Both the position numbers and the translations under genes were made by a program. A DNA stretch of 64,000 nt from Coffea arabica (lineage: Eukaryota; Streptophyta; Magnoliopsida; Gentianales; Rubiaceae), in contig NC_092323.1 in the NCBI RefSeq assembly GCF_036785885.1, forward strand, positions 8,502,501 to 8,566,500, read 5' to 3'. Under the pieces are notes generated by a model. That model was not told the origin of the DNA. It ran no database searches and saw only the letters and a program-made list of their open reading frames with translations. Positions within the stretch are counted from its first letter, which is position 1; every line of letters begins with the position of its first letter. Shown here in pieces: positions 9,176 through 31,800 of this stretch.

Positions 9176-9649
9176 TAGGACTGCAAACGAATCGAGCCGC
9201 TCGCGAGCGGCTCGAGTCAAGCTCGAGTCGGCTTGAGTTAAACTTGAGCTCGAACTCGAGCTCAGAATATTAACTTTGTTAGCTTGCGAGCCGGCTCGCG
9301 AGTTTGAGTATATATATATATATATATATATTATTTTTTTTAATTTAATAATAAAATTACGTATATTATATTTATTTTTTTATTTTTTATTTTCATAGTA
9401 AAATTACGTATATATTCTTAATATTTTATTATTTATTAAGAAAAAAAATATTATTTTATTTATTTTTTAAAAAATAAAATAATTATTTTTTATTTTTTTC
9501 GAGCTCGAACTCGAACTCGGCCCAACTTGATTCGAGTCGAGCTCGAGTTTGAAATTGCCGGCTCGTCGAGCTCGACTTTGATAAAATTCAGTCGAGGCTC
9601 GACTCGATTAGCTCAAAGTTCGATTCGGCTCGATTCGTTTGCAACCCTA
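9176..9649. mobile_element. hAT-type MITE, 474 bp, with a perfect 8-bp TSD
   Basis: The ends are inverted repeats starting TAGGACTGCAAACGAATCGA on the left and, read inward from the right, TAGGGTTGCAAACGAATCGA (about 22 of 24 bases match). The 8-bp target duplication GTACGCAC is exact at 9168-9175 and 9650-9657. The ends are full of GAGCTCGA-type subrepeats, and the centre is almost pure A/T, including a (TA)n run. No coding capacity is present. An 8-bp TSD with TAGGG-like termini is the signature of the hAT superfamily. It lies between the LEA promoter and the 3' end of the ATAD3 gene. Confidence 0.9.
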
Positions 9650-25757: not shown

Positions 25758-26166
25758 TAGGAGTGCAAACGAGCCGAGTCGAGACGAACTTTAAACTTAT
25801 CGAGTCGAGCTTCCAGTTAATTTCATGAAACTCAAATTCGAGCTCAAACTCGATGAGCTCAAAATGTCAAGGTCGAGATCGAGCCCAACTCAAATTCGAG
25901 TCGAACTCAAGCTTAAAAAATAAAAAATAATTATTTTATTTTTAAAAATGAATAAAATAATTATTTTTTTAACAAATAATAAAATATTGGGATATATATG
26001 TAATTTTACTATTAAAATAAAAAATAAAAAATATATATATATAATTGAGCTCGCGAGCCAACGAACTTAATGTTTTTGAGCTCGAACTCGACTTGAGTTC
26101 GATATTGACCGAGCTCGAGTCGAGCTCGTATCCGATCGTGAACGGCTCGATTCGTGAGCAGCCATA
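25758..26166. mobile_element. hAT-type MITE with 8-bp TSD ATTCTAAT
   Basis: The left end TAGGAGTGCAAACGAGCCGA and the right end, read inward as TATGGCTGCTCACGAATCGA, are imperfect inverted repeats related to the MITE at 9176-9649. The same GAGCTCGA-rich flanks and A/T-rich centre are present. Exact copies of ATTCTAAT lie on both sides (25750-25757 and 26167-26174). Confidence 0.87.
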
Positions 26167-26174
26167 ATTCTAAT

Positions 26175-26505
26175 CATGATTCAAAGTCGCATCGTAGTTA
26201 TGCTGGCGGCTCGGACCGTTCCATATCGGTCGCGGTTTCAGCGAGACACAAAAATTTGAAATATTTAATATTTTAAAAATTATAAAAAATATGATAATTA
26301 AAAATTAGTAAAAATAATAATAATTCAAGTTGACTCGTGATGGTTCGGAATGATTCGGTGTGATTCAACCGTTTCAACCATTCACGGTAACGTCTCACAA
26401 GCCAAATATCTCGGAATCGTATCATCCCGATGTCGTATCGGGAGGACCCGAGACGGTAACGACTTGGCCGAATCGTCTCAGACTCGACCGGGTCTTTGAA
26501 CCATG
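26175..26505. mobile_element. hAT-like MITE (CATGGTTCAAAG family), copy 2, sharing its neighbour's TSD
   Basis: The ends are CATGATTCAAAGTC and, inward from the right, CATGGTTCAAAGAC. It is flanked by ATTCTAAT at 26167-26174 and 26506-26513. The left flanking copy is the same 8 bp that forms the right target duplication of the MITE at 25758-26166. It is homologous end to end with the element at 20130-20455. Confidence 0.87.
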
Positions 26506-26513
26506 ATTCTAAT

Positions 26514-27270
26514 AGATCAATTAATAAATCAAACTTTGTGAAGTCCACCAGAAACCATGATCACCAGTGGAGAATGGAAGATCCCTCAACTCAACCGCGA
26601 AGCAGGGGATATCGCCAAAATTGATGATGTTCTTCCAACACACGCAAGTAGACAATAAGTGTGAAAAACGACATGAAGGAACAATACTGCTAATATACTT
26701 GTATCAGACGTATGTATAATTAATACTCCTGCTTACTTAGTGGTCCTTGCCGTTGAAATACTAAACGAATGTATCAATCTCACTTAATTCTGCCTCGGAC
26801 AAATACAAAAAACGACCCATTGTGCATGACATGAACTTTATTATAGTACGCAGTCATATATGTAACTATCATTACCACCAGGGCCAAATTAATTGAAACT
26901 TACTTTTGGGGATACGGACAAGCACTGCATGAATTTAGTGGCCTGCATTGAGGGGAAGAGAGCATCTTGGAGAATTCGTCAAACAAAGTTTTTCTTGAAG
27001 GGAAAACTGCATACTTGGGGATTTTTTCTTTGGAGTAAAATACCAACAATCCAAAAATCATCCCACCACCTACTAAGTTAACACCTGCACTGTCAAAGAG
27101 AGAATAAGGAAATGACCTAACGGTAGCGGCACTTAGTTAGTGAGTGAAATTTTTTTTTTTTTGTTTTTGGCTAATGCTGCCATTTTCCAAGCATTTAGGT
27201 TTGCTTCATCCTCCCCTTCCGGTAGAGCGTCCCTATATTGCGATTGCAATAATCAACTTCTTGGCCAAAG
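26514..27270. other. Spacer between MITE pair and Pack-type element
   Basis: No recognisable gene or repeat beyond an 11-12 T run near 27150. Confidence 0.4.
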
Positions 27271-28809
27271 AAATTATCCGGTTGGTCATTAAACTTTTGC
27301 CATCGTTCAGTTTTAGTCACTCAACTATTAAAAGTCTGGTTTTGACCATTGAAATATATAAAGTTAAGACGCGAGGCCATTCTGTTATATTTGGCCGTTA
27401 AGTTTACCAATATGTCTGTTTGCACGATTTTCAAGATAAAAGTTAGGGTCAATTTAGGAAGTTCAACATCTTCTCTCAAAAATTGTTCCTCTTCCTCCTC
27501 CCCCTCCTCAAATCTTCGTCAGACCCTTTTCATCCACCGCAGGCATCAAGACCAAACCCAGAACCTCCCCTCAAGCAACCCAATCTCCCTGCTGCCCGTC
27601 CCTAAATTCTCCATTCGCTAAACTTCCTTCCTCCAGTTCCTCCACCAGCGGCACCTCCGCTTCAAGCCGTACATCCCTCTCCAGCCTCCATCTCTCCCTC
27701 CTGGAACACGCCTATATTTATGATTTCTCCGAAATCTGTTCTGTCGCCAACAATTTTCTCGCCAAACGCTACTCCACTTCCTCCTCCTCCTCCCAGTCCT
27801 GGTGCTGCGAGCTCAACGGAAAGGATGTCATTATTTTCCAACGGAAAATCCATCAAACAATCCACGAATCTGACTCAAATCCAAATTATTGTTTATTTGT
27901 AAAAGCCACATAAATGCTTAATCAAGCTCCTCGGAGCTTCCATTTCAAATAATCACATTTACTTAGTTTACAAATTTATCAGCGGCTCCAATCTTTCTAC
28001 TTGTCTCTGAAATCCAAGAAACCCTGATTTCACCTTTCTTTCAACCTGGATGTCGCGAATGCAAATCGCCATGGATTTAGCTTACGGCTTGAATTATATC
28101 CACACCGCAGCCAGATATAGCATAAGTTTGGGCCACCAGTACGTGAAGAGCAGTGGAATTATTATCACTGAGCCTTCCTTGAATGCCCGAATTTGCCATT
28201 CGGAGCCGCCGAGCTATGCTCCGAGACGAAGAGATATGATGGAGGTGAGATAACGAAAGAGGAATTGCCGGAGCTGCGGAGGTCGGGGAATGGGGGTAGG
28301 TAATTTGAAGGAGTGAGAGGATACTGTTGCCGGAGTTTAAGTCCACCGGCTTGGCGACGCAGAAGTTTGACATATACGCTTTTGGAGTGTGATTTTGGAG
28401 CTTTTGTCCGGGAAGGAGCCGCTGAAGTATAAATATGAATGATAAAATGAGTGGAGATTATAGGAAGATTTCAATTATTGATTCAGCAACGAAGTCGGTG
28501 GAAACTGACGGAGAGAGTAATGAAACGGTGAAGGGAAGATTTGAGGATGAAAAGGGTCTGACGAAGATTTGATGAGGAGGAGGAGGAAGAGGGACAATTT
28601 TTGAGAGAAGATTTTGAACTTCCTAAATTGACCCTAATTTTTATCTTGAAAATCGTGCAAACAGACATATTGGTAAACTTAACGGCCAAATATAACAGAA
28701 TGGCCTCGCGTCTTAACTTTATATATTTCAATGGTCAAAACCAGACTTTTAATAGTTGAGTGACCAAAACTGAACGATGGTAAAAGTTTAATGGCCAACC
28801 AGATAATTT
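27271..28809. mobile_element. Pack-type TIR element carrying a kinase gene fragment
   Basis: Two arms of 265 bp (27271-27535 and 28545-28809) are reverse complements with roughly ten visible differences, about 96% identical. The outer ends carry AAATTATCCGGTTGG on the left and, inward from the right, AAATTATCTGGTTGG. Termini like this (often preceded by GGGC) are known from plant Mutator-like elements. No clean 9-bp target duplication was found, so the superfamily is inferred. The internal kilobase is not transposase but a decayed receptor-kinase fragment. Both arms also contain the CTCCTCCTC tract and CTTCGTCAGACCC, so part of the captured gene may have been drawn into the repeat. Confidence 0.8.
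27536..28544 (+). pseudogene. Broken LysM-type receptor-like kinase fragment captured in a TIR element
   Basis: Translating in pieces gives ordered matches to a LysM receptor kinase of the LYK3 type, recognised from memory: HAYIYDFSEICSVANNF, then KRYSTSSSSSQSW, LNGKDVIIFQRK, IKLLGASISNNHIYLVYKF, STWMSRMQIAMDLAYGL, VKSSGIIITEPSLNARICH, FKSTGLATQKFDIYAFGV and KMSGDYRKISIIDSA. These cover the juxtamembrane region and most of the kinase domain in order, without the LysM ectodomain. The copy is dead: stop codons lie after FVKAT, within STCL/NPRNP and after YAFGV, and there are frame changes near 27620 and 27910-27920. No introns remain obvious within the fragment. The source gene is presumably elsewhere in the genome. 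Confidence 0.75.
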
Positions 28810-31800
28810 GCTCAAATAAAAAGGGTTCTCTCATATCTGCCGTCCACCCCCAAAAAATAAATTAAAAATTAAACAGGAAAAAAGGAACTGAACTTGGTCA
28901 AATATTAACCTGGAACCACCGCCACCATCGTTGGCAAACACAGTTAATTAATCACTATTTACTGTTAATCTCAACCCCAAAAAAAAAAAAAACTACTTAT
29001 TGTTAATGTACTGACAGATCAATTTCACTGGTATGATTGAACTTTTATTTATTGCTAATTTATTACGATTAACCTTGCTATGAAATATGTTCAGTAAAAT
29101 AATTTTTTTTTAATCTTAAGTCAAATACGTGAGAAAGTGGACTCGGGTTCGATTAAAATTTGGACATGTTCATCTTGGCTGACGGAGAAGTTGGATAAAA
29201 ATCAGAGGTCCCGGATTAGATGTGGTGGGCATATAAGTCTATGAGATGATTTGTCATGATCTTGAGCTTTTTCTTTTCTTTTTGGCTCGGCTATTCGTAG
29301 TTCGTATAGCCCCCGCAGTCACATCGAAATTTCTTCTTCTTTTTTTTTTTGGTATTTAAGTAGATATTTATTCTTATTCCACTTTTGTTTTTCTTTTCTT
29401 TTCTTTTCTTGAAACTGAAATATTAGGCAGATGTGAGTTATGGCCCAATCAGAGTATTAATGCATGGAACTGCTACGAAACGAGTTCCACTTTTGTTTTT
29501 CTTTTCTTGAAACTGAAATATTAGGCAGATGTGAGTTATGGCCCAATCAGAGTATAATGCATGGAACTGCTACGAAAGGATATAGTAATTACTTGGAGCT
29601 AAATGCCTCTTAAGTGGTTACCCCAAAAAAGAATAAGTTTTAATCGTCAATTCCTTCGATGGAGTCACTCTATTCCATTCCTTACCCGTTAAAGGAGAAT
29701 TTGAGTAATTTAATTTATTATAAATACATAAGTTCTAACTCTTTTTTGCCAAAAAAAAAAAAAGAATTGTTCTAGTTATTTTTTGGCCTAATATTCAACT
29801 TGGTTCAATAAGCTGGGATTTATTTTTCTGCAAGGAAAAAATTACAATTGCTTTCTTGGCAATTTAATTAATTGATGAATCCTTCCCAAATGATTACTAA
29901 TGGAACTTGTTCCCCACTTGTTTCGTATCTTGGTTCATATTTGGATCCGGGGCTCGAACGGTTCCGAAAGGTGTAATACTATTTGCACACGGTGTAATAT
30001 CATCTGTACAAGGTGTAACAATAGAACAACAGCGAGTAACACTCGAACCAAATCAAATGCTAGTCTTTTATTAGATGTAATATTCTATTAATAGCATTTA
30101 TGATCAAAATATATATTCTATTTATAGCTTCACCCAATAAATTCTTCAAGGCATGGAAAAGAAGAAAATAAAAATGGTGAAAAGTGAAAACTATGCATTA
30201 ATTTTTTTATGTATTTTTTTATACTAATAACTATGAATTCGTGACATGCGTACAACAAAATAACCTGAAATGTGAATGAAAAATTTATTTGTCATGAATC
30301 CATGTATGCTACATAAAACAAACATTTGTACAAGTGATCGCCTAGGAAAATAAGTTTCGAGATTTTCTTTTACTGTTTTACTGCAAAGAATACAATAAGT
30401 TAACGAAAGAAAGAGACTTACAAGAAGAAAAGCATGCTTCTTATGTCTTTATCCAGATTCCCAATATCCCGTGGAACTAGCAACAAAATTTGAAAATTGA
30501 CTCATTCCACAAATCCTTCTTTGAAATTGTAACGTTGTGATAAATATTTCCATGGACCAATCATGAGCTCAATTTGTATCGGTTTTTGGTTAGAAAAGTG
30601 GAACCAAACAACCAATAATTTAGCAGATGATGAAGTAGTCTGCTTTGTCTCGTCATCTGTAGTTGGTAAGGCCATTTATAAACCTTTGGTTCAACAAATT
30701 TAGAAAGATGCAATTTTTAACAATATATTTCTAGTGAGGGATAAGAAGTGAGGACGTCCTCCAACTTTTATCATTCTCAAAAATTGGATTCAAGAAAAAT
30801 CAAGAGAGGCTGCTGGACTGAAACTCCTGTTCTTTTGCTCTAATGGGTGAACCAGATACTTCTTTGTCCTTTCTTTTGCTTTCTCAATTTCTCTTCATTT
30901 ACTCGAGAGAAAGGGGGTAGGAGCGTAGAAAGAGGAGAGAAGAGGACAGGACAGGAGACCTACATCTTTATGATCGTCACCATCCTTTTTCTCCCATGAC
31001 CCATGAATTCTGGACTATTGTAGTCTTCTTGAAGCATAAAAATAAAATCTTGTCACCTTTTTTTATCTTCCCATGTGGGATGGTTAGACTTGGCTCTTAC
31101 TAGTCTTTTGGAGTTGGGAGCTATCATTTATCTTCATTGGTTTTTAATCTTAGCGGCTTCTGGAAAAGGGGGAAGCTAAAGGGTGAGTTTGGTTAGGCCT
31201 CTGCTTTTTTTGTTAGGTATTTTGGTTTGTGGGGATTCGTTCTACGCTTGTGTCAGAAGGAAGAGGGATTTCTTCCGGTGTATGTTGTAATAGAAAAGAT
31301 TGTCCTTCAGAGAAATCAGAATTATGAACTGAGATTTTGTTCTAGTGAAGGAAGGAAGCAAGGAATTTGCTAAATCTCAGTGGGGAGTACCAAGAAGTTT
31401 TTCCTTAAAGCTTAAGTCTTTGTCTGAGCGTGGGGGTTTGATGGTGAATTTTGAGGTTTCGGTGAAGTGGGTCGTGCTTAGTTTGCACAATTAGTCTCTG
31501 GTGGTGTCGAATGTCCGTGTATTGGATCATTCTGTTGGACAAAGCCAGTTTCCTTCTTGTGTTGAACTTGCTGTTCCTGTTAACCAACAACCAGAGATAG
31601 AAACTTTTCTTGTTCAGCCATTTTCCTTGGTATGTGTTTTCTTTGCTTCCTTCAGACCCCTATTTTTAAAATGATTCCCCTGTCTGTACCCTTCCTTCCT
31701 AAAACAACAGATAATCCACTTATTCTGATGTTTACATTTTGACTGCCTGTATTGATGTCTTATCATTTGTTAATTCGCTAACACGCTTTTTGTTCTTAAT

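Follow-up and report, generated by a model that had tools for sequence, protein, structure and literature searches.

How does a transposable element without a transposase come to hold a fragment of a host kinase gene between long inverted arms, and how does host-gene DNA come to lie within the arms themselves? Pack-MULEs have reportedly been described in rice and other plants by Jiang et al. in 2004 and in later work. Gene acquisition by MULEs is termed "perplexing" in the abstract of one paper (PMC8277862) and was, in a 2012 passage of another, "yet to be understood" (PMC3310237). Here, we address the question at a locus in coffee. The window, i.e., the whole 64-kb stretch that was analyzed, spans C14:8502501-8566500, and the genome searched comprises 1,197,963,845 bases in 131 contigs.

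RESULTS

The window element and its inverted arms

The element is delimited by two inverted arms of 265 bp each (27271-27535 and 28545-28809), which are 96.6% identical as reverse complements and are separated by 1009 bp, in agreement with a sequence-only reading that had described 265-bp arms of about 96% identity around roughly 1 kb. This is the longest inverted pair of the window (the runner-up is 137 bp at 88%), and inverted pairs in ten first-order Markov controls were no longer than 45 bp. The left terminal inverted repeat proper occupies the first 199 bp (27271-27469, plus strand); approximately positions 1 to 199 are common to elements with other cargo. Comparison of the arms and of family ends places the right terminal repeat (199 bp) together with a terminal GCTC at 28611-28813 on the minus strand, and the right end of the element is thus 28813, 4 bases beyond the arm as first noted.

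Foldback elements have arms built of tandem subrepeats. No tandem array was found in the arms among the direct-repeat families listed for 26300-29800; the one family with both copies in the arm region (D6) consists of two copies 28 bases apart at the right junction. A foldback element was rejected on this basis. The interior is filled by a kinase fragment and a 6-nt junction filler, with a longest stop-free frame of 151 codons, leaving no room for a transposase. As far as can be judged from its sequence, the window element therefore has no transposase of its own, and here too the sequence-only reading holds.

Other features of the window were also noted. A tandem duplication of ~98 bp, with copies 96 to 97% identical, lies just to the right of the element (29394-29580). 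The runner-up inverted match (9362-9498 versus 25915-26043) has its right-hand copy in a stretch with many genome-wide matches. A scan for open reading frames, which split genes would escape, gave three of at least 110 aa between 20 and 36 kb; of those with a Pfam match, a U-box protein frame is closest to the element, ~5.3 kb to its right.

A repeat family with variable cargo

A genome search with the whole element returned at least 129 matches (40 of 456 candidates scored). Comparison of the copies showed that family ends begin GAGCAAATTATC; this terminus, with at most 2 mismatches, has 298 matches in the genome (151 + 147), compared to 0 for a reversed-pattern control. The family arm of ~199 bp is shared by elements with other cargo, and the arm search that had been proposed as a check did find arms across the genome around other contents. 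A run of termini at C6:12765574-19966280 has no nearby partner terminus among the exact matches listed (100 of 298) and is possibly a larger repeat holding one element end.

We read both ends of 35 elements, leaving out the truncated L011 and three elements whose second arm was incomplete or outside the stretch read (L038, L040, and L045); the 35 contain nonindependent copies, namely, four of one insertion on C8 as well as L017 and L019. An exact 9-bp target duplication flanks 25 of the 35, and 2 more match at 8 of 9 positions in the same fixed register, which was chosen from the very copies that were counted. The right end of L026 was shifted by 3 bases for this count after inspection of its end. 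Since four of the 25 (L033 twice, L034, and L035) represent one insertion in duplicated DNA, the fairer 9-bp count is 22 of 32. Exact 10-bp duplications flank L031, L037, and L047, and L010 matches at 9 of 10 positions. Thus, 28 of 35 copies have an exact 9- or 10-bp duplication and 7, including the window copy, lack one; shifted-register controls gave 0 at 8 of 9 or better. For MULEs, target duplications of 9 to 11 bp are stated in a passage of PMC3310237.

On C8 (C8:38390828-38462482; L033 2833-8385, L034 2189-3563, and L035 2609-3983), a single other-cargo element is present four times with an identical target duplication; three of the copies lie at exact intervals of 4178 bp, as a tandem array in which the transposon is part of the repeated unit. 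L017 and L019 (C10:39164018 and C9:43154526) have identical flanks on contigs that are probably homeologs and no target duplication; they may go back to a single insertion that predates the subgenome split.

Ten frames from other-cargo elements were compared to Pfam: five scored above the curated cutoff (TCP, O-methyltransferase dimerization, DUF4005, PHD_Oberon, and PB1), two scored below it (PAM2 and a second PHD piece), and three had no family. On C3 and C4, the TCP-like DNA has matches (97 to 98%) that do not extend to the remainder of the element; parts of the PHD element L043 match C5/C6/C7 and another part matches C11/C12. Because its relatives carry other gene fragments, the window element can be classed as a Pack-MULE. 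The terminus of the coffee family resembles that of MuDR, and terminus and duplication length together fit the Mutator superfamily. L047 (C5:41773213-41781256; 8 kb) has the same ends, a 10-bp duplication, and two 1.3-kb direct repeats that are 98% alike, and is probably a family element with a nested LTR retrotransposon.

MULE transposase domains have at least 150 scored matches in the genome (of 2147 candidates). Among the matches listed, 0 of 100 termini (of 298) fell within 20 kb of one of 150 such domains, the lists being compared by eye, and no autonomous partner with GAGCAAATTATC-type termini was found among the family copies and transposase-domain matches listed. Mobility of the element would require a Mutator transposase acting in trans.

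The insertion site

The window copy lacks the left GAGC and the left target duplication: host AAAG (27267-27270, plus strand) abuts the element directly, while on the right position 28813 is followed by the target duplication AAATAAAAA (28814-28822, plus strand). The homeologous stretch on C13 is element free and holds the nine bases once, reading GGCC AAAG AAACA AAATAAAAA GGG, compared to GGCC AAAG, element, AAATAAAAA GGG in the window. Judged against this empty site, 18 bp are missing at the left end, comprising AAACA, one target duplication, and GAGC. Most likely, the window copy inserted with a normal 9-bp duplication and later lost these 18 bp, a deletion read from the homeolog in a copy whose left duplication is gone. 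Flanking pieces of the element are 91 to 98% identical to C13. The absence of the insertion there suggests that it is younger than the subgenome split or was lost on C13.

The missing left duplication would speak for a simple local inverted duplication in which no transposon took part. This explanation is ruled out for practical purposes by the 298 termini, the exact 9- or 10-bp duplications of 28 of 35 copies, and the empty homeologous site, and we give it a negligible probability.

The kinase cargo and its likely parent

Positions 276 to 1268 of the element align to codons 27 to 380 of the likely parent, an open single-exon frame that is present on C2 and, as its homeolog, on C1; the captured part of this LYK-like frame amounts to ~1.06 kb. 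In the window, the captured fragment lies at 27546-28538 (plus strand) and, in alignment to the C2 and C1 copies, has a 72-bp internal deletion, six frameshifting indels, and two in-frame stops. The C2 and C1 parent frames are 0.8% divergent over the captured stretch (L014 3963-5303 and L015 3774-5144), and no arm sequence was found in the 9-kb stretches around either frame. The genome search with the internal kilobase, also proposed in the sequence-only reading, thus recovered a close, armless kinase relative on C2/C1.

The parent frame matches kinase families in Pfam and, in the PDB, scores best against LYK-type kinases and CERK1. No LysM domain was found in the frame by Pfam, and all 17 matches from a genome-wide LysM search lie outside C1 and C2; a LysM receptor kinase as parent was accordingly rejected. 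The cargo had been taken for a fragment of such a receptor, which is correct as to a decayed LYK-like kinase but not as to the LysM parent. The catalytic residues expected of an active kinase, K, D, and D, are replaced in the parent by F, Y, and H, respectively (both PDB templates themselves have N at the third position), and the parent is therefore probably a pseudokinase. With no introns apparent, no LysM, and replaced catalytic residues, this open LYK-like frame is likely a conserved pseudokinase.

Differences between the window cargo and the C2 frame number 28, 15, and 21 at codon positions 1, 2, and 3, respectively, and stops and frameshifts are present in six of six cargo copies examined. 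Coding constraint on the cargo was rejected, given that differences are not concentrated at third positions and every copy examined is disrupted. The kinase cargo is best viewed as a decaying passenger.

A probable single capture and two lineages

Besides the window copy, six elements contain kinase DNA: four with both ends, one truncated (L011), and L016, which has the first 130 bp only. Identity is 98.5% for L009, 96% for L010, and 88% for L012 and L013. The copies fall into lineage A (the window copy, L009, L010, L011, and L016) and lineage B (L012 and L013), which retains the 72 bp deleted from the window copy. In L016 (2449-3848; C19:43454348-43455747), the first 403 bases are of the kinase-carrying type and are followed by 0.8 kb that is 96% identical to C4:11420879 and C31:52261; L016 is apparently a chimera in which a second capture replaced most of the first.

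At the left junction, TCA is common to the arm and the parent. At the right junction, parental GGGAAG is followed by an ATTTGA filler (28539-28544, plus strand) and then by the arm, with GAAG as a short homology. Together with flanking bases, the filler repeats GAAGATTTGA, which recurs 28 bases further on within the arm (28563-28572; direct repeat D6). The same junction, allowing for substitutions, is present in the six copies that reach it. Short homologies of 3 to 4 bp, as at these junctions, may be due to chance. Because lineages A and B share both junctions, the kinase was most likely captured once.

At eight cargo sites that differ between the C2 and C1 frames, the copies that have the base agree mutually, with C2 at five sites and with C1 at three. 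This pattern favors a capture that preceded the separation of the subgenomes and disfavors one after the split. The divergence between lineages A and B is 7.7 to 9.7%; homeologous flanking pieces differ by 2 to 9%.

A second host gene in the arms

Beyond the 199-bp arm lies a further segment (gene 1), which is present at both ends in 5 of the 35 elements, at one end in 24, and at neither in 6 (L039, L041, L042, L043, L046, and L047). The five are the window copy, L009, L010, L012, and L013, i.e., the kinase-carrying elements with both ends. A genome search with the gene-1 segment of L025 gave 39 matches. The C17 and C18 matches (C17:44146344 and C18:41144634) lie in a gene-like locus; their alignments start at the inner arm edge (element positions 197 to 201) and run for 165 to 222 bp in L025, L030, and L036. 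In the window, the left segment (27470-27545, plus strand) is 84.8% identical to C18 over 79 bp (element positions 200 to 278), and its 66-bp inverted copy in the inner right arm (28545-28610, minus strand) is 82.9% identical over 70 bp. No family arm was found in the 951 bp examined at the C17 and C18 donor loci. A gene-like locus without an arm, aligned from the inner arm edge, indicates capture from gene 1; most likely, therefore, the inner arm segment derives from this second host gene. Neither of two gene-1 frames had a Pfam match. C13:9783468 is a further match to the segment.

The kinase gene was considered as the source of the inner arm and rejected: the kinase stretches match the element only from position 276 and have no 21-mer in common with either arm. 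The idea in the sequence-only reading that the element may have copied captured-gene DNA into both arms thus proved half right, in that the inner 66 bp of both arms are gene DNA but come from gene 1 on C17/C18, not from the kinase.

The same comparison bears on a proposed function, namely, that transcripts of the 265-bp arms fold into a hairpin whose small RNAs silence the parent kinase. The arms are long and 97% alike, and the window cargo, which would form the loop, has 207 21-mers in common with the C2 kinase stretch and 177 with that on C1, such that an antisense cargo transcript could in principle act in trans. However, a search of both strands in five copies found no 21-mer common to an arm and the C2 or C1 kinase stretch in any of them. 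Small RNAs from the stem would instead correspond to the transposon family. In three of the five copies (the window copy, L009, and L010), they would additionally match gene 1 on C18 through a single 25-nt stretch of the right arm; these arms share five 21-mers with C18, compared to 0 with C17 (both strands). Silencing of the parent kinase by small RNAs from the stem, as the sequence-only reading had suggested, is not supported, and we regard a hairpin locus of this kind as highly improbable.

Mirrored changes in the two arms

The window copy, L009, and L010 lack, in each arm, an 11-bp stretch of gene 1 that both lineage B arms retain. In addition, a comparison of 26 arms from 13 elements identified 12 sites at which a base is common to all eight A arms and absent from all four B arms; at four of these, it is also absent from all 18 other arms compared. 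In a tree of arms from 22 of 34 elements, the eight arms of four A-lineage elements form one clade (100/100), and those of L025, L027, L030, and L033 do likewise (100/99). Arms of L017, L020, L023, and L024 separate by side, and the two arms of L013 do not group together. At one arm site, the left A arms are fixed for one base and the right A arms for another.

Taken with a single capture, these mirrored changes indicate that one A arm took over the changes of the other or that a single source replaced both. The mirroring could also stem from exchange between elements rather than within one, with which the separation of the L013 arms in the tree is consistent; the site at which left and right A arms differ likewise speaks against copying purely within an element.

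DISCUSSION

Taken as a whole, the locus is probably best explained as a nonautonomous Mutator-like Pack-MULE whose lineage captured the kinase once before the subgenome split, with a later insertion in the window, a subsequent deletion at its left end, and gap repair as the source of both capture and arm growth; we hold this reading with good confidence. The sequences show a family with arms of ~199 bp, one branch of which has a gene-1 fragment beside one arm; in the kinase-carrying elements, the kinase stretch adjoins this fragment, which recurs inverted in the other arm. A gap would have opened in an element, and its repair synthesis may have given rise to both the capture and the growth of the arms: the broken right end would have copied the left arm 66 bp beyond its usual inner edge and then, by short homology, switched template to the kinase gene; the small templated filler would be a trace of that switch. 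Copying from arm to arm would have continued after the capture. Repair synthesis with template switching fits the overshoot in arm copying, the short homology, and the templated filler.

Alternatively, the element may be a Pack-MULE whose cargo was captured by fusion, with family elements inserted on either side of a donor gene and their outer ends then mobilized together. Such a model has been published for Pack-CACTA and is proposed, in the portion of that paper drawn on here, for all Pack-TYPE elements (PMC8903248); the serial, mosaic cargo of the coffee family is compatible with repeated fusion. We consider it unlikely here, because the 9-kb stretches around either kinase frame contain no arm, and fusion alone would not explain why both arms contain an inverted gene-1 piece and lack the same 11 bp, or where the templated filler came from.

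Extending the gap-repair reading to MULEs in general, it is quite possible, if somewhat short of probable, that the broken end of a MULE is copied from the opposite arm (by way of a stem-loop or gap-repair step), that copying overshoots into captured gene DNA such that the inverted repeat grows, and that it then switches to a new gene, with copying between arms continuing thereafter as a matter of routine upkeep. Under this reading, the length of the arms and the identity between them would, in Pack-MULEs, report the last repair or capture and not the age of the insertion. End-to-end identity of elements is said to fall with age in a passage of PMC4858842; our data suggest that arm-to-arm copying may reset the identity between element ends.

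Pack-MULEs, mosaics, and captured DNA within extended terminal inverted repeats are already known, and the coffee family belongs to this known type. Among titles and abstract beginnings of the open-license literature, we found no paper on this element family or on Coffea Pack-MULEs; one on transposable elements of Coffea was among those listed (PMC3823963). What the family offers is a set of intermediates with identified donors, for which the second subgenome of a probable allotetraploid supplies empty sites, making models of capture testable by sequence comparison. The relatives of the window element keep a fairly clear stepwise record of how its pieces were acquired.

Compared to Pack-MULEs as described in parts of four sources (PMC3310237, PMC8277862, PMC4858842, and PMC13317346), the coffee family likewise has long inverted ends, target duplications of 9 to 11 bp, no transposase, fragments of unlinked host genes, several donors per element, and multicopy amplification. 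It does not differ in kind and shows captured DNA at no, one, and both ends within one genome. Pack-CACTA and other Pack-TYPE elements, in the portion of PMC8903248 compared, are similarly nonautonomous and carry gene fragments from several loci; Pack-CACTA belongs to a different superfamily, and its capture is proposed to proceed by fusion of neighboring insertions. The Pack-TIRs of animals, for which gap-filling and fork-switching models are discussed, share short homology at capture breakpoints with the coffee family, whereas arm mirroring is a feature of the coffee family absent from the description compared (a part of PMC8277862). The closest precedent is the integration of captured DNA into extended terminal inverted repeats of MULEs, reported in a passage of PMC3310237 that cites Hanada 2009 and Lisch 2002. 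There, as in the coffee family, acquired sequence became part of the inverted repeat; to that one-sentence description, the coffee family adds the donor locus, relatives in earlier states, a second captured gene, and indicated copying from arm to arm.
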